Source: Mauremys mutica
Lineage: Eukaryota; Chordata; Testudines; Geoemydidae
Length of the DNA: 64,000 nucleotides
Assembly (NCBI RefSeq): GCF_020497125.1
Contig: NC_059081.1
Location: 63,694,768 to 63,758,767 of the forward strand
Direction: 5' to 3'
In this document: positions 55,630 to 64,000 of the stretch, piece by piece
Layout of the letters: each line of letters begins with the position of its first letter
Position numbering within the stretch: position 1 is the first letter of the stretch
Position numbers and translations under genes: made by a program
Notes under the pieces: model-generated
Databases searched by the model: none
What the model was told of the DNA's origin: nothing
The model's input: the letters and a program-made list of their open reading frames with translations, nothing else

Positions 55630-55799
55630 TGTAGACGTTCCGGTGTGGGGCTCGGCCCTCTCAGGTGCGGCTGGGAGCCAGGCCGCCTCACTGTGTGAGG
55701 CTTAGAGCGCAGTTAAGTCTCCCAAAGTCCAAACCCTCGGTCCAGGCAGACAGTAAATAGTAGTCCCCAGGCTCAGGCAGGGTTGAGAAAACCCAACAG

Positions 55800-56480
55800 G
55801 AGTCAAGGCCCCAGCCCTAGGTCAGGGCGGGGCAACAAACAGTAGTTTGTGGGCTCAGACCCTCAGGCAGGGGCTGAGCAAAACCCACGGCAGTTCAAGG
55901 GCTCAGACCCTCAGGCAGGGGCTGAGCAAAACAAGCAAGCAGTCTTTTAAGCCCTAGCCCTAGGTCAGGGCGGGGCAACAAAACTGCAGTTCAAGGGCTC
56001 AGTCCCTCAGGCAGGGGCTGAGCAAACCCACAGCACTTCAGGGGCTCAGACCCTCAGGCAGGGGCTGAGCAAACAGTCTCTTTTGCCCAAGCCCTAGATC
56101 AGGGCGGGGCAACAGCAATAGTTCACAGTCTCAGACCCTTAGACAGAGGCTGAGCAACAAAGTCAGTAAAGCCATAGGCCTCAGTCAGGGCGGGGCAACA
56201 AACAGCAGTTCTGGGCTCACACCCTCAGGCAGGGCCGAGCAAACAAACTGTAGTCCAAGGGCTCAGGTCCTTGGGCAGGAGCTGAGCAAAACAACCAGTT
56301 AGTGAAGCCCAGCCCTAGGTCAGGGCGGGGCAACAAACAGCAATTCACAGGCTCAGGCCCTCAGGCAGGAGCTGAGCAAACAAAACAGTTCAAGGGCTCA
56401 GGCCCTCAGGCAGGGGCTGAGCAAAAACAAACAGTTCAAGGGCTCAGGTCCTCAGTCAGGAGCTGAGCAAACAGCAGGTA
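55800..56480. repeat. Tandem repeats inside the 3' LTR
   Basis: About ten variants of a roughly 40-50-base unit centred on gctcagaccctcaggcaggg / gctgagcaaa, interspersed with a second unit gccctaggtcagggcggggc. The other LTR has about seven copies, explaining most of the length difference. Confidence 0.9.
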
Positions 56481-56946
56481 AGTCCAGACTTCTGGGTCTG
56501 AGCGCTGGTGTGAGGGGGAGACTGCCACCCGTGAGTGGGGTGGCAGGGGGGACACAGGCCCACCCACTCCACTGTGTCCCAGCCTGGGGCCCTAACAGCG
56601 GCAGTTAGTCTGCTGCTGTGTCAGTGGGGTCCTGACCGCAACACACCGACATCGGCTCGAAATCTGTGGTAGCCAGACTGGGGTCAGCTACCCCCGGGCT
56701 ACTTCCATTCTCCCCCTCCATTGGTACCTGTTCATCTGTAGCGTCCTCCGCCGGGTCCCACACCATGGGCTCCTTGGGGTGCTGAGCACTGGATCGGTCG
56801 GGTGGCTCCTCCGGACTCTGGGCTAGGGGACGCTCGGGCAGCTCCTCGGGGTACCGGGCTCGGGGAAGGCTCGGTCCAGCAGGAGCTCGGGCAGCAGCGT
56901 CTGTCCTCTCTGGCGGTCGAGCAGCAACTGAGCGCTGGGGCCGGGC

Positions 56947-56953
56947 CTTTATA
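56947..56953 (-). promoter_or_regulatory. TATA box in the 3' LTR
   Basis: On the minus strand reads TATAAAG, preceded by GC-rich ggcgggacaggaag and followed by ggcccggcccc. The same motif is at the equivalent site of the other LTR. Its place in the LTR fits a U3/R promoter. Confidence 0.6.
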
Positions 56954-57070
56954 CTTCCTGTCCCGCCCCTTGACTTCCGGGGGGTGGGGACAGGCGGTGG
57001 TGGCTCCGCCCACTCTGGCAGCTGCTCTGGCTCGGCCCTCTCAGGTGCGGCTGGGAGCCAGGCCGCCTCA

Positions 57071-58190
57071 CTACACGGCCCCCCCGTCAAGGCTGGCTCC
57101 CGTGCAGCGGGGCCAGCCCATTCCATACCCACCCCCCAGACGGGAGAGGAAGTCCGCATTTGCATGGTCCTTCCTGGCCCTATGACGGACAGTGAATGCA
57201 TAGGGCTGCAGGGCCAAGTACCACCGCTGCAGCCGCATGTTATGGTCCTTCATGCGGGCCAACCACTGGAGGGCGGAGTGGTCGGTGACCAAGGTGAAGG
57301 GGACTCCCAGGATGTAGTACCGCAGAGCTTCACAGGCCCACTTCCTGGCGAGGGCTTCTTTTTCGACCACCGCATAATTTGTCTCTTGGGGGAACAGCTT
57401 CTGGCTGATGTAAAGAACCGGATGCTCTTCCCCGTCTACCTCTTGGGAGAGGATGGCCCCGAGTCCCACCTCCGAAGCATCTGTCTGCAGGACAAATGGC
57501 CGGGTGAAATCGGGGCTATACACGACCGGCTCCCTGCAGAGGCTGGTTTTCAGTGTCTGGAAGGCCTTGTCACACTTGCGGGTCCATTTCACCTGTCGCG
57601 GGCTGTCCTTTGTCAGGAGCCCCGTTAAGGGGGTGGCAATTGCCGCGAATTGGGGAATAAACCGTCTGTAATATCCTGCCAGCCCCAGAAACTGGCGCAC
57701 CTGGCGTTTTGTGGCCGGCAGGGGGCAGGTTGCGATGGCCTGAACCTTGCCGACAAGAGGTTTTACCTGCCCATGCCCGATAGTATACCCCAGGTACGTG
57801 GTCTCTTGCCAGCCGATGCGACATTTCTTAGAGTTGGCTGTTAACCCAGCCTTCCGCAGAGACCTCAGGACAGCTGCGACCCTTTCTAGGTGGTTCTCCC
57901 ACCGGGGACTGTAAATGACCACGTCATCCAGATAGGCGGCCGCGTAGTCCTGATGTGGCTGGAGGAGGCGGTCCATCAGGCGCTGAAAGGTAGCCGGGGC
58001 CCCATGGAGGCCGAAGGGCATCCGGGTAAATTGGTACAGGCCCGTGGGTGTGGCGAACGCAGTCTTCTCCCTGGAGGTTGGTTCCAGGGGGATCTGCCAG
58101 TACCCTTTGCTTAGATCAAGGGTGGTGATATAGCGGGCCTCCCCTAACCGGGCCAATAGCTCATCGATCCGAGGCATGGGGTACGCGTCA
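57071..58190 (-). pseudogene. pol: Pol: RT catalytic half and RNase H (Gmr1-type)
   Basis: An open frame of 368 codons from the first Met at 58177, continuous with upstream Gypsy RT codons up to the CR1 insertion. RT palm motifs are intact: TTLDLSKGYWQ (catalytic D, residue 21) and YLDDVVIYS (residues 82-90). The connection has FLGLAGYYRRFIPQFA. RNase H follows: VLQTDASEVGLGAIL (D231), EKEAL (E270/E272), LVTDHSALQW (D297) and HANADFLSR (D340), so the catalytic acidic residues are all present. The stop codon TAG (57071-57073) lies inside the LTR, formed by the LTR's own first bases TGTAG. This half has no stops or shifts. It is called a pseudogene because the CR1 separates it from the RT N-terminus and upstream pol has stops. 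Confidence 0.9.
57076..57090 (-). promoter_or_regulatory. Polypurine tract of the LTR element
   Basis: Immediately inside the 3' LTR the minus strand reads ccttgacgggggggccg then TGTAG. A G-run next to the LTR boundary is the expected plus-strand DNA primer. Confidence 0.7.
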
Positions 58191-59429
58191 TAGAATCATA
58201 GAATCTCAGGGTTGGAAGGGACCTCAGGAGGTCATCTAGTCCAACCCCCTGCTCAAAGCAGGACCAAACCCAACTAAATCATCCCAGCCAGGGCTTTGTC
58301 AAGCCTGACCTTAAAAACCTCTAAGGAAGGAGATTCCACCACCTCCCTAGGTAACCCATTCCAGTTCTTCACCACCCTACTAGTGAAAAAGTTTTTCCTA
58401 ATGTCCAACCTAAACCTCCCCCTCTGCAACTTGAGACCATTACTCCTTGTTCTGTCATCTTCTACTACTGAGAACAGTCTAGATCCATCCTCTTTGGAAC
58501 CCCCTTTCGGGTAGTTGAAAGCAGCTATCAAATCCTCCCTCATTCTTCTCTTCTGCAGACTAAACAATCCCAGTTCCTTCAGCCTCTCCTCATAAGTCAT
58601 GTGCTCCAGCCCCCTAATCATTTTTGTTGCCCTCCGCTGGACTCTCTCCAATTTATCCACATCCTTCTTGTAGTGTGGGGCCCAAAACTGGACACAGTAC
58701 TCCAAATGAGGCCTCACCAGTGCTGAATAGAGGGGAATGATCACATCCCTCGATCTGCTGGAAATGCCCCTACTTATACAACCCAAAATGCCATTAGCCT
58801 TCTTGGCAACAAGGGCACACTGTTGACTCATATTCAGCTTTTCGTCCACCGTAACCCCTAGGTCCTTTTCTGAAGAACTGCTGCCCAGCCATTCGGTCCC
58901 TAGTCTGTAGCAGTGCATGGGATTCTTCCATCCTAACTGCAGGACTCTGCACTTGTCCTTGTTGAACCTCATCATATTTCTTTTGGCCCAATCCTCTAAT
59001 TTGTCTAGGTCCCTCTGTAGCCTATCCCTACCCTCCAGTGTATCAACCACTCCTCCCAGTTTAGTGTCATCTGCAAACTTGCTAAGGGTGCAGTCCACAC
59101 TATCCTCCAGATAGTTAATGAAGATATTGAATAAAACCGGCCCCAGCACCGACCCTTGGGGCACTCCACTTGATACCGGCTGCCAACTAGACATGGAACC
59201 ATTGATCACTACCCATTGAGCCCGACCATCTAGCCAGTTTTCTATCCACCTTATCGTCCATTCATCCAGCCCATACTTCTTTAACTTGCTGGCAAGAATA
59301 CTGTGGGAGACTGTATCAAAAGCTTTGCTAAAGTCCAGAAATAGCACATCCACTGCTTTCCCCTCATCCACAGAACCGGTTATCTCATCATAGAAGGCAA
59401 TTAGGTTAGTCAGGCATGACTTGCCCTTG
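58191..59429 (-). mobile_element. Young CR1 LINE inserted in the Gypsy RT
   Basis: A 5'-truncated CR1 of 1239 bp. Its 3' end lies at 58191 and has repeats of the form catagaat (ATTCTATG type on its own strand), preceded by the tail ggttggactagatgacctcc and the 3' untranslated region. The 6-bp target duplication gcgtca lies at 58185-58190 and 59430-59435. Insert plus duplication is 1245 bp, a multiple of three. The coding part is open from insertion to its natural stop TAG (58274-58276), with no damage, which suggests a recent insertion. Confidence 0.95.
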
Positions 59430-60094
59430 GCGTCAAACTTGGAGATAGCATTAACGCGCCTGAAGTCGATACAGAACCGTTGTGAGCCGTCGGGCTTCGG
59501 CACCAGCACTACAGGGCTGCGCCACTCACTTTGCAATGGTTCAATCACCCCCAGATCCAGCATAGCTCGTACCTCCTCCTCAATGACCCGCCTCCTGTGA
59601 TACGGCAAGGGCCTGGTCGCGCCCCGGATCACCACCCCAGGCTCCGTCTGGATCCTATGGTATACCAGGGAGGTGTATCCCGGTTGGCCCGTAAAGGTGC
59701 GGGAAAAGGCTCGCAGGAGGCACCGGGTCTGCTTGAGTTGGTCGTCTGTTGGGGTCTCCCCAAGCTGGGGTTCCCCGGGGTCCTCGGTATGGGCGACCTG
59801 GGGTCCTAATTCTGGTTCTGGCGGGTAGGGGTTAATCAGGAGCCCTTTGCGTTCCCGCCAGGGCTTGAGGAGATTGACGTGGTACCGCTGGATCTTCTTT
59901 TTTCGGTCCTGCTGATTAATTTCATAGGTAACCGGGCCCACCTTCCGGACCACCTCATATGGCCCTTGCCACCGGGCCAGAATCTTGAATTCACTGAAGG
60001 GCAGGAGGAGTAACACCCGGTCTCCGGGTTGAAAGTCCCGAGTCTGGGCGTCCCGGTTATAAGTCTGGGCCTGCGTGTTTTGGGCGGCTTTCAA
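58274..60094 (-). pseudogene. Chimeric frame: Gypsy IN tail + RT start fused to CR1 RT
   Basis: A single open frame of 606 codons. Residues 1-90 are the integrase C-terminal part with a GPY/F-type motif (RWQGPYEVV, 41-49). Residues about 137-222 are the start of Gypsy RT ([20 protein letters not shown]). At residue 222 the sequence passes without a break into CR1 ORF2 (223-606). CR1 RT motifs are intact: FLDFSKAFD (252-260), [17 protein letters not shown] (310-326) and FADDTKLGG (340-348), then the C-terminal domain to the CR1 stop. The Met is internal to the element's pol, since the frame runs on upstream to the TAG at 60131. It is a product of transposition, not a known gene; expression is unknown. 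Confidence 0.85.
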
Positions 60095-60994
60095 ATTCTC
60101 CCGCGCCAGAGCCCCCGCCTGCTTAAGGCGCTACTGGAGCTGGAGTACATACTTTAAGAGGCCCTGGGCTGGTGATGGGGCTTGCTCCCAGGTTTCCCTC
60201 ATGAGGTCCAACAGGCCCCGGGGTCGCCGGCCGTACAGCAACTCAAAGGGTGAGAACTTGGTTGATGACTGGGGGACTTCTCGTACTGCCAGGACCAGGG
60301 GTGGAAGTAGCTGGTCCCATCGGCGAAGGTCCTCCTGGGGGAACCTATGCAGCATCTCTTTCAGCGTCCGGTTGAATCTTTCAACCAGCCCATCGGTCTG
60401 GGGATGGTAGACGGACGTTCGGAGTTGCTTTATCCCCAGGAGTTCGCACACCTGCTGGAGCAGCCTTGAAGTAAAGTTGGTCCCCTGATCCGTGAGGATC
60501 TCCCGGGGCAGGCCGACGCGGACGAAGACCTTCATCAGCTCAGCTGCGATGGTGCGGGCTGTGATGTTCCGGAGAGGGATTGCTTCGGGGAACCTGGTAG
60601 CATAGTCCATTATGACTAAGATGTATTGGAACCCCGCATTGCTCTTGGGGAGAGGCCCCACCAGGTCCATGGCCACGCGCTCAAAGGGGGTCTCAATTAA
60701 AGGCATCGGGACCAGCGGTGCCTTGGGGGTCCATGCGGGGGTGGCCAACTGGCATTCCGGGCAAGACTGGCAATAATTCTTTATCTCCTGGTGTACCCCT
60801 GGCCAGAAGAAGCGCCCCAGTATTCGAGCCAGCATCTTCTCGTGACCTAGGTGTCCAGCTGCTGGGACATTGTCGGCCAACTTCATGACCGCCCGGCGGT
60901 GGCACCGGGGCACGAGGAGTTGAGTCCTGGTATCCCCCGTGTGGGGGTCCCTCTCGACCCGATACAGGCGCTCCTGCTGCAGCTCGAAGTGTGG
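59690..60994 (-). pseudogene. pol: Pol: integrase (Gmr1-type), one internal stop
   Basis: A 260-codon open frame (first Met 60913, TAG at 60131-60133) is in the same frame as coding on both sides. Zinc-binding HHCC: H21, H24 or nearby in AGHLGHEKM, and CQSCPEC (C48/C51/C54). Catalytic triad: D83 in MDLVGPLP, D142 in LTDQGTNFTS, E178 in GLVERFNRT, with the usual 35-residue D-to-E spacing. After the TAG the frame continues 12 codons later with the C-terminal GPY/F module up to about 59810. Upstream, 27 codons (FELQQERLYRVERDP...) join it to the protease frame after the TGA at 60995-60997. It lies before RT in the element, unlike most Ty3/Gypsy elements. Confidence 0.9.
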
Positions 60995-61470
60995 TCACTG
61001 CGCCGCTCGATGTGGGTTGAGGATAGTTCCATCTACGGTGGCCAGCTGGTCGTATGCCCCTTTGAGTGTGGGGTCGGCCCGTTGATCCCGGCAAAAGTCC
61101 GTGGGCACCGAGGGATCCTCCCCCACTCCTGGGGGGGCATTTTCAGGTCTTCCTGTCGGGTTGGCAGGGTCGGGACCTTCTCCCCCGTCTTCCTCGGACT
61201 CTGTTGCCTCCCCTTCCAGGGCAGGCGTGACCTCGGCGTGGCGGCGTAGGACTGCTGGAAACTCGGGCCAGTCCCGACCCAGGATCACCGGGTATACCAG
61301 CCACGGAGCGAGTCCCACTACCATCTGCCGGGTGACCCCATCAATTGTCAATTGGGCCCTTGCGCTTGGGTAGGGCTGTATGTCCCCGTGTCTGCATTGT
61401 AGCTGAATCGCTCCCAGGCGGGCGCCCTTCAATAACTGTCGGGCGCCCTTCAATAACCACAGGCACGGTG
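60995..61470 (-). pseudogene. Pol: protease remnant lacking its active site
   Basis: The N-terminal strand is visible in the gag frame ([12 protein letters not shown]) and the C-terminal part in a different frame ([12 protein letters not shown]..., then LVYPVILGRDWPEF, the hydrophobic-LG-D-W motif that ends retropepsins of this kind). The D-S/T-G catalytic motif that should lie between them is not present in any frame. Instead, at about 61432-61467 the bases encoding VIEGRP are tandemly duplicated with a shift of frame, so a deletion with local duplication has removed the active site. The frame then runs through an acidic linker (EGEATESEEDGGEGPDP) to a TGA at 60995-60997. Confidence 0.75.
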
Positions 61471-62670
61471 ATCTTGGCCGCTTGCGGACGCCGGGCACAG
61501 CCTTCCCCGGAGTAAACCTGGCCAAAGGTACACTCCAGTCCTGGGCAGTCCCGCAGTAAATGGCCACGCTCCCCGCAGGAGAAACAGGACCCCAGGTCTG
61601 CCCGTCCCGTCCGTGACCGGGTACCAGGGTTACCTCCTGGAGGGCCCCGGTAGTCCCCTCTTGGCGCGGGGGTTGGAGTCCGAGTGGGTCTCCCGGAGGA
61701 CGCTGCGGCCTGGGTCCGGGCCTCCGCTCCACGGGAGGAAACTCGTACATCCGTCGGGGTGGGCGCCTCCTTCTTCTCGGGGTTAGGGCGCTCCGTCCGG
61801 GGTGGGGCGGTCCGGCCAGCCGAACTCAGCGGGGCTTCAGCCGCGAGGAAGTCCTCCATTAATGTAACGGCTGCGGCCACTGTTGCTGGCCTATGGCGGA
61901 GGACCCAGGCTCTTCCTCGCGGCGGGAGTACATGGGCGAACTGCTCCAGTACTACCTGCTCTATTAGCTCCTCTAACGTCCGGCGTTCGGGCTGCAACCA
62001 CCGCTTGCAGCTCTCCCGGAGCTCTTGGGCCACCATCCGAGGCCGGGCCCCTGGGGAATAAGTCAGGCTTCTAAAGCGCTGTCGGTATGTCTCCGGACTC
62101 ACATCCAGGGCGTCCAGAATGGCGGCTTTCACCTGCTGTAATCCTGGGCTGCCTCGACAGACAGGCCTCGATAGACCATCTGCGCAGTCCCAGTTAAGTA
62201 CGGGGCCAGGATGGTAGCCCGTTGGTCCTGGGCCCAGCACGCGACAACGGCCACCCGCTCGAACGTGACAAGAAATGCTTCTGGGTCGTCACCGGGTCCC
62301 ATCTTCGTCAGCCGAATTGGGGGGCTGGGCCGCGAAGCCCCTGCTGGGCCTTCCGGCTGGGGTTCCCCAGGTCGAGCCAGCGCCGCTGCGAGCTGCTGGA
62401 CACATTGCCTCTGGAAGTCCTGGTGCTGGGTAACCAGGTCTTGAAATAGCTGCCGTTGTTGGGACCCTAGCTGCTTGTTGGGACCACGAGCTGCTGCTGC
62501 TGTTGGAGGTGGGCGGCCTGCTGCTCCTGTTGCTGTCGCAACTGGGCCGCCTGCTGTCGCTCCTGGCTCTCCGTTACCAGGGCCAGGAGCTGGGACAGAT
62601 CCATCTCTCGGGAGGGCGGTCTCTCTCCCGCGGCCCCCTTCTCACCAGCGTCAAGAGCTCGCGCCCACAT
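61341..62670 (-). pseudogene. gag: Gag with SCAN-like capsid and CCHC zinc knuckle
   Basis: Three frame pieces make one Gag. (1) 62670-62467: acidic/Gln-rich N-terminus; a Met at 62604 begins MDLSQLLALVTESQERQQA; the piece ends in a Q-rich run and a TAG. (2) About 62465 to the TGA at 62129-62131: ...[16 protein letters not shown]... and [13 protein letters not shown], typical Ty3/Gypsy capsid motifs. (3) 62240-61341: a SCAN-like domain at residues 48-135 ([38 protein letters not shown]), then basic and Pro-rich sequence and a zinc knuckle [14 protein letters not shown] (C219, C222, H227, C232). Frame changes lie at about 62470-62490 and at about 62130-62140. Confidence 0.85.
61836..62099 (-). 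other. SCAN-like domain coding segment
   Basis: Eighty-eight residues with the order and spacing of a SCAN domain: an aromatic-Arg-Gln-Arg-Phe-Arg start, a Cys-X-Arg-Trp-Leu-X-Pro-Glu middle, an hydrophobic-Leu-Glu-Gln-Phe helix and a Trp-Val / ED end. SCAN domains of vertebrate zinc-finger proteins are held to derive from the capsid of Gmr1-like Gypsy elements; this segment is the element-side counterpart. Confidence 0.8.
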
Positions 62671-62702: not shown

Positions 62703-62889
62703 TGTAGACGTTCCGGTGTGGGGCTCGGCCCTCTCAGGTGCGGCTGGGAGCCAGGCCGCCTCACTCTGTGAGGCTTAGAGCGCAGTTAAGTCTCCCAAAG
62801 TCCAAGCCCTCGGTCCGGGCGGACAGTAAATAGTAGTCCCCGGGCTCAGGCAGGGCTGAGAAAACCCAACAGGAGTCAAGGCCCCAGCC

Positions 62890-63405
62890 CTAGGTCAGGG
62901 CGGGGCAACAAACAGTAGTTTGTGGGCTCAGACCCTCAGGCAGGGGCTGAGCAAAACAAGCAAGCAGTCTTTTAAGCCCTAGCCCTAGGTCAGGGCGGGG
63001 CAACAAAACTGCAGTTCAAGGGCTCAGTCCCTCAGGCAGGGGCTGAGCAAACCCACAGCACTTCAGGGGCTCAGACCCTCAGGCAGGGGCTGAGCAAACA
63101 GTCTCTTTTGCCCAAGCCCTAGATCAGGGAGGGGCAACAGCAATAGTTCACAGGCTCAGACAGGGGTTGAGCAACAAAGTCAGTAAAGCCCAAGCCCTCA
63201 GTCAGGGCGGGGCAACAGACAGCAGTTCTGGGCTCAGACCCTTAGGCAGGGGCTGAGCAACCCAAACAGTAATTTAAGCCCGAGCCCTGAGTCAGGGCGG
63301 GGCAACAAACAGCAGTTCACAGGCTCAGGCCCTCAGGCAGGGGCTGAGCAAAAACAAACAGTTCAGGGGCTCAGGTCCTCAGCCAGGAGCTGAGCAAACA
63401 GCAGG
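62890..63405. repeat. Tandem repeats inside the 5' LTR
   Basis: About seven variants of the gctcagaccctcaggcaggg / gctgagcaaa unit plus the gccctaggtcagggcggggc unit; otherwise as in the 3' LTR. Confidence 0.9.
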
Positions 63406-63880
63406 TAAGTCCAGACTTCTGGGTCTGAGCGCTGGTGTGAGGGGGAGACTGCCACCCATGAGTGGGGTGGCAGGGGGGACACAGGCCCACCCACTCCACT
63501 GTGTCCCAGCCCGGGGCCCTAACAGCGGCAGTTAGTCTGCTGCTGTGTCGGTGGGGTCCTGACCGCAACACACCGACATCGGCTCGAAATTTGTGGTAGC
63601 CATTCTCCCCCTCCATTGGTACCTGTTCATCTGTAGCGTCCTCCGCCGGGTCCCACACCATGGGCTCCTCGGGGTGCTGAGCACTGGATCGGTCGGGCGG
63701 CTCCTCCGGACTCTGGGCTAGGGGACGCTCGGGCAGCTCCTCGGGGTACCGGGCTCGGGGAAGGCTCGGCCAGTCCTCCTCAGGGTACCGGGCTCGGGGA
63801 AGGCTCGGTCCAGCAGGAGCTTGGGCAGCAGCGTCTGTCCTCTCCGGCGGTCAGGCAGCAACTGAGCGCTGGGGCCGGGC

Positions 63881-63887
63881 CTTTATA
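63881..63887 (-). promoter_or_regulatory. TATA box in the 5' LTR
   Basis: Minus-strand TATAAAG in the same context as at 56947-56953. This copy would drive the element's genomic RNA. Confidence 0.6.
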
Positions 63888-64000
63888 CTTCCTGTCCCGC
63901 CCCTTGACTTCCGGGGGGCGGGGACAGGCGGTGGTGGCTCCGCCCACTCTGGCGGCTGCTCTGGCTCGGCCCTCTCAGGTGCGGCTGGGAGCCAGGCTGC

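Follow-up and report, generated by a model that had tools for sequence, protein, structure and literature searches.

A SCAN-type capsid domain in an inactivated, probably Gmr1-like Ty3/Gypsy retrotransposon of the turtle Mauremys mutica

The window analysed here, 64,000 nucleotides of the genome of the pond turtle Mauremys mutica (Geoemydidae; GCF_020497125.1, NC_059081.1, positions 63,694,768 to 63,758,767), carries towards its end, on the minus strand, a retrotransposon flanked by long terminal repeats (LTRs) whose gag region encodes a SCAN domain. In the direction of the element, the order between the LTRs is gag (a glutamine-rich region, the N-lobe of the capsid (CA), SCAN and a CCHC zinc knuckle), a damaged protease (PR), integrase (IN), reverse transcriptase (RT) and RNase H (RH). 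A preliminary description, made from the letters alone, had proposed a SCAN-like domain at 61836-62099 in a turtle-like genome; the Pfam match lies no more than three bases from those ends and the genome is that of a turtle, but no strand had been named, and the plus-strand translation of the span contains stops. The features are as follows (ORF, open reading frame; P numbers are our handles for database proteins):

62703..64000, minus strand: 5' LTR, with its start beyond the window end; ends in CA
62129..62641, minus strand: N-terminal gag frame with the glutamine-rich region and the N-lobe, ending past a frameshift near 62135 (ORF list, tblastn)
62135..62302, minus strand: CA N-lobe, in a frame different from that of the SCAN part (residues 2-58 of the turtle gag protein P0002 match 62305-62135 in tblastn, 86%; a shared CA start lies at 62302; also the fold of P0023, a relative)
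61341..62288, minus strand: ORF carrying SCAN and CCHC (ORF list)
61839..62096, minus strand: SCAN domain, the C-terminal half of CA (Pfam PF02023, 96.5 bits, E 8.4e-28; structure model with a predicted local distance difference test score (pLDDT) of 91.2)
61545..61586, minus strand: CCHC zinc knuckle, nucleocapsid (Pfam PF00098, 25.4 bits)
61010..61434, minus strand: protease region, frame-shifted (tblastn pieces of P0002 and P0001, three-frame reading)
60134..60994, minus strand: integrase H2C2 and rve core, with an in-frame stop at 60131-60133 behind it (Pfam PF17921, 61.1 bits; PF00665, 53.8 bits)
59861..59965, minus strand: integrase C-terminal domain (Pfam PF22938, 48.1 bits, residues 56-90)
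58189..59425, minus strand: CR1-like long interspersed nuclear element (LINE) inside the element RT, with 3' end (ATTCTATG)2 and an upstream boundary set by eye (chimeric ORF 58274-60130, junction reads)
57071..58188, minus strand: remainder of the element RT and RNase H (Pfam RVT_1, 108.8 bits; RT_RNaseH, 122.9 bits)
55630..57075, minus strand: 3' LTR, 1,446 bp, TG...CA

The SCAN match covers positions 1-86 of the 90 positions of the profile and residues 65-150 of the ORF at 61341-62288, and its score, against a curated gathering cut-off of 27 bits, is far above chance level; a genome-wide search returned identical ends. When the window SCAN was compared by phmmer with the sequences of the PDB, SCAN domains came out on top, namely those of ZNF24 (2.6e-19), PEG3 (5.4e-16), MZF1 (ZNF42; 3.6e-14), ZNF174 (5.7e-14) and ZSCAN10 (3.6e-9). 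The structure predicted for the segment is the five-helix SCAN fold. Thus, the profile score and the predicted fold bear out the domain first noticed by eye, as does the presence in the window translation of the motif letters then quoted, and of ED. Its placement between a Gypsy capsid part and a CCHC knuckle stands as regards order, since the N-lobe precedes SCAN and the knuckle follows it, but a frameshift separates the frame of the N-lobe from that of the SCAN part.

The order PR-IN-RT-RH, with IN (60994-59861) ahead of RT and RNase H (58188-57071), is the order given for the cod Gmr1 element in a passage of PMC2582038, and the part of PMC2774666 that deals with the Gmr1 lineage describes an integrase order like that of Ty1/Copia. 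The LTRs have the TG...CA ends, the start of the 5' LTR falling outside the window, and gag combines CA with CCHC. In place of the C2H2 fingers expected of a host SCAN-zinc-finger gene, the window element has CCHC, IN, RT and LTRs, and its RT piece matches three SCAN-bearing proteins, of turtle and fish, at 41-60%. The link to Gmr1-like Gag made in the preliminary description is therefore upheld by the Gypsy capsid context and the Gmr1 gene order. PMC4592553 and PMC3406341 credit Emerson and Thomas (2011) with tracing SCAN to a Gmr1-like capsid, and frog Gmr elements with SCAN (pfam02023) are already in print, according to the section of PMC4131045 that treats them; SCAN copies on the element side are thus not new.

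The window copy is dead: the frames of N-lobe and SCAN differ, the protease region is frame-shifted, a stop interrupts the integrase and a CR1-like LINE is inserted in RT. In the three frames read across the protease region, the LLDSG stretch present in relatives was not seen. Across 1,258 aligned bases, the two LTRs show 27 transitions and 13 transversions (seven indel blocks set apart), which gives a Kimura two-parameter distance of 0.033, or 0.022 when CpG columns are removed. Slow turtle rates are of the order of 0.5-1e-9 substitutions per site per year, and under this assumption the two values correspond to about 16-33 and 11-22 million years; the insertion would be some tens of millions of years old at most, and is far younger than the capture of the host SCAN. 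Several further observations concern the copy. Both LTRs contain arrays of repeats of about 45 bp, 15.4 copies being counted in one of them, the arrays of the two LTRs differ by indel blocks, and a 39-bp stretch lies close to both ends of the complete LTR. The ORF at 58274-60130 (618 residues) joins the end of the integrase and the start of RT in frame with the RT of the LINE, and gene finders could annotate it as a single protein. A blastn search of window positions 1-55500 for further LTR or CR1 copies found none, Rfam gave 0 matches in the window at its gathering thresholds, and a search of PLSDB, a collection unsuited to the question, gave no match.

The M. mutica genome yielded 3,522 first-look SCAN candidates, of which the best 150 were scored, so that the counts given here are lower bounds. 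Fourteen of these 150 loci score 115-140 bits and the remaining 136 score 86-100.5, the window copy among them with 99.6. In hand-copied counts, at least 35 of the 136 have an open frame, free of stops, of 1,400 codons or more, and at least 17 have a stop within the SCAN match. Frames of this length fit a whole gag-pol, since in fish Gmr elements gag and pol jointly amount to 1,506-1,634 residues, as tabulated in a portion of PMC11117352. In the stretches fetched for the 14 high-scoring loci, C2H2 fingers were found for five and the CCHC pattern for none (the host label of the other nine comes from score and tree); three lower-scoring loci of similar fetched length all had CCHC and no C2H2. 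Host (13) and element (23) SCANs of this one genome share 0.33-0.50 identity (mean 0.42) and form two separate sets, and in a FastTree of the genome, from which loci L022 and L025 were left out (short or broken SCAN), hosts have a support of 0.905 and turtle elements of 0.949. High-scoring host-type SCAN exons are clustered at C17:17.36-17.45 Mb, C4:148.6-155.7 Mb and C15:27.0 Mb, and an element-type copy, L023, adjoins the C17 cluster. The open frame listed for the SCAN match at C10:81124422-81124679 has 12,895 residues with two TGA inside, unlike all other rows; this is perhaps a masked or repeated stretch.

CA profiles were built on the relatives that three protein searches brought up; in the third, turtle proteins appeared that have C2H2 fingers in addition to N-lobe and SCAN (e.g. 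P0133, P0134 and P0139), as did the two ratite entries P0145 and P0149. From a first alignment set, P0001 (a two-piece match) and all rows that fell short of 140 capsid or 80 SCAN letters were removed, leaving 66 capsid and 116 SCAN rows. The main trees were made from 70 of 245 sequences (65 database proteins, four PDB chains and the window), picked by lineage and source, and comprise 72 SCAN and 59 capsid rows, two lizard proteins having two domains each; ZSCAN10 is in the first set and absent from the main trees. In the main and in-genome trees, the labels element and host were given from names, Pfam domains and scores. In the SCAN tree, all 35 host rows (33 proteins, of which 11 turtle and four human) form one clade (88.5/99), which is joined by a Xenopus element, P0101, with CCHC and retroviral-protease matches (95.5/99). 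The turtle elements, including the window, group instead with sturgeon, Menidia and two further elements (97.1/99), and cichlid and carp elements fall outside both groups. The capsid tree has two main groupings, with 99.5/100 and 99.6/100, and unites the turtle elements with P0058 (91.8/98).

These trees bear on the possibility that the gag SCAN is host-derived, the element having taken it back as an exon of a host zinc-finger gene. Such a recapture would account for the 96.5 bits with which the window domain matches the host SCAN model and could find support in the separation of SCAN from other capsids suggested by a passage in PMC11011659, where metaviral capsid models detected 0 known human SCAN proteins. 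However, an approximately unbiased (AU) test on CA rejects the placement of turtle elements with turtle hosts (7e-7), and one on SCAN that of the window with the hosts (0.0013); fish elements outside the host clade share the layout of N-lobe and SCAN, and identity between element and host SCANs in M. mutica does not exceed 0.50. On these three counts we regard recapture as hardly credible. That the host SCAN came from the turtle lineage itself, whose copies could then date the capture, is only slightly less improbable in our view: host-type exons and elements do coexist in the genome, but the turtle elements do not join the host SCANs ahead of other Gmr1 elements, their placement with all hosts is rejected by AU tests (0.014 for CA, 0.029 for SCAN), and an LTR divergence that, at slow rates, corresponds to no more than some tens of millions of years is ill suited to the purpose. 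Dating the capture by the window copy, the use foreseen in the preliminary description, is accordingly judged unlikely, given where the turtle elements group and how recent the insertion is relative to the capture.

Most simply, the SCAN of the element and that of the hosts would be cousins by way of the Gmr1 capsid, because of the trees, the AU tests and the in-genome separation; the window element looks like a relative of the source of the host SCAN and not the source itself. As a whole, the reading that we prefer is that the domain is the C-terminal domain of the capsid of a pond turtle LTR retrotransposon, Gmr1-like and of the Ty3/Gypsy type, present here as an inactivated copy, and that the host SCAN stems from another branch; we put its probability at about 0.92. 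In a working copy, by analogy with homologous capsids, Gag would form dimers or multimers through the SCAN segment as the particle assembles, with the N-lobe ahead of that segment and a presumably RNA-binding CCHC knuckle after it. The host SCAN would be an ancient capture from the other branch of the Gmr1-like group; the window copy is an inactivated insertion of a family that retains, in this genome, many copies with long stop-free frames.

Several points weigh against this reading. The Shimodaira-Hasegawa (SH) test does not reject turtle elements with hosts (0.124 for CA, 0.121 for SCAN), and so allows the donor placement; the Xenopus grouping depends on a single element sequence; support is as low as 77.9/59 for hosts minus Xenopus (capsid tree) and 48.5/86 for turtle elements by themselves (SCAN tree); and in the in-genome FastTree hosts with Xenopus have 0.822 and turtle with fish elements only 0.547. 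Gene order, LTR and gag features make the Gmr1-like assignment a probable one. As to the predicted fold, the training of AlphaFold may have included SCAN structures. Finally, conservation between elements and hosts in the dimer-interface columns is not significantly above that of other columns (p 0.054; 0.12 for hydrophobic columns only), and a dimer common to both is therefore not demonstrated.

A different question is whether turtles formed fresh SCAN-zinc-finger genes from their elements. Proteins of Chelydra (P0058, P0061) and Chrysemys (P0069) have C2H2 fingers and a SCAN over the cut-off, yet lie inside the turtle elements in the trees, and their placement with hosts is rejected by AU tests (6e-6 for P0058 on CA, 0.00019 for all three, 0.00088 for P0069 alone). 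Against this, the Chelydra fingers have an M. mutica orthologue (C17:19704961-19705227, 96% identity) that runs open into an acidic N-terminal part of its own, and a capsid-profile scan of C17 from 19696000 to about 19706700 (the locus and 8.0 kb upstream) found nothing; moreover, the database name is "Uncharacterized protein", and P0069 has finger-like debris ahead of SCAN. The Chelydra fusion may be specific to Chelydra, its exon may lie more than about 9 kb away, or the gene model may be chimeric, the last being the likeliest; fresh capture thus seems improbable to us, if less so than recapture or donorship. Among other predicted proteins, P0080 (Chrysemys) combines a SCAN-gag stretch with a Myb/SANT-like domain; P0002, P0003, P0022, P0038 and P0052, turtle entries named zinc finger protein 446-like, SCAND2P, SCAN domain-containing protein 1-like or Mediator subunit 15-like, lie among element gag in the trees; and the lizard zinc-finger proteins P0086 (Podarcis) and P0087 (Zootoca) have two full units of N-lobe and SCAN in tandem. 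Ratite entries of ostrich and rhea, P0145 (named MZF1) and P0149 (with fingers), have N-lobe and SCAN. According to a passage of a review, chicken and frog lack KRAB-zinc-finger genes with SCAN; judging by the ratite entries, some birds have SCAN.

The hinge has the same length in turtle elements and host SCANs. Because of this, and because the predicted C-terminal domain of the element capsid has the extended form of SCAN, the swapped SCAN dimer might be the ancestral joining mode of the Gmr1 capsid, unlike that of Ty3, Arc and retroviruses, and host SCAN-zinc-finger proteins of the same turtle could co-assemble with the capsid; we hold this model to be possible but doubtful. If true, Gmr1 particles would be joined by swapped dimers, and the domain swap would not be a host invention. 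A possible action of SCAN proteins on retroelement capsids can now be tested with natural partner proteins.

Our results agree with the published Gmr1 origin of SCAN. Literature searches turned up, by titles, no paper on turtle SCAN elements (turtle data of Emerson and Thomas, 2011, if any, were not compared); new here are the turtle lineage apart from the host branch, the census in the same genome and the test of one apparent fusion. A single genome contains both an element family with a SCAN capsid, in which many long frames are still open, and SCAN exons of host type that stem from an older capture. Caution is called for, as many turtle entries named SCAN proteins look like element gag fragments.

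Compared with known systems, the turtle element resembles the Gmr1-like elements of Emerson and Thomas (2011), as citing papers give them, and the frog Gmr elements of PMC4131045 in having SCAN in Gag, IN ahead of RT and many copies, whereas the turtle lineage and the single frog element lie apart in the CA and SCAN trees, and the LTR of 1,446 bp with internal repeats distinguishes the turtle element from known Gmr1-like elements. The monomer model of the window SCAN can be aligned over an entire SCAN chain; with the capsid domains of Ty3, Arc and Rous sarcoma virus the best structural alignment rows span only 47-51 residues of the SCAN part, and with the swapped dimer of the HIV capsid (2ont) the alignment spans 73. 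The SCAN/ESCAN of vertebrate zinc-finger genes shares with the window domain the profile, the predicted five-helix fold and, in reptile ESCAN genes, the N-lobe, but it forms a separate clade, and the window SCAN is part of gag, with CCHC and pol as its neighbours in place of C2H2 fingers.
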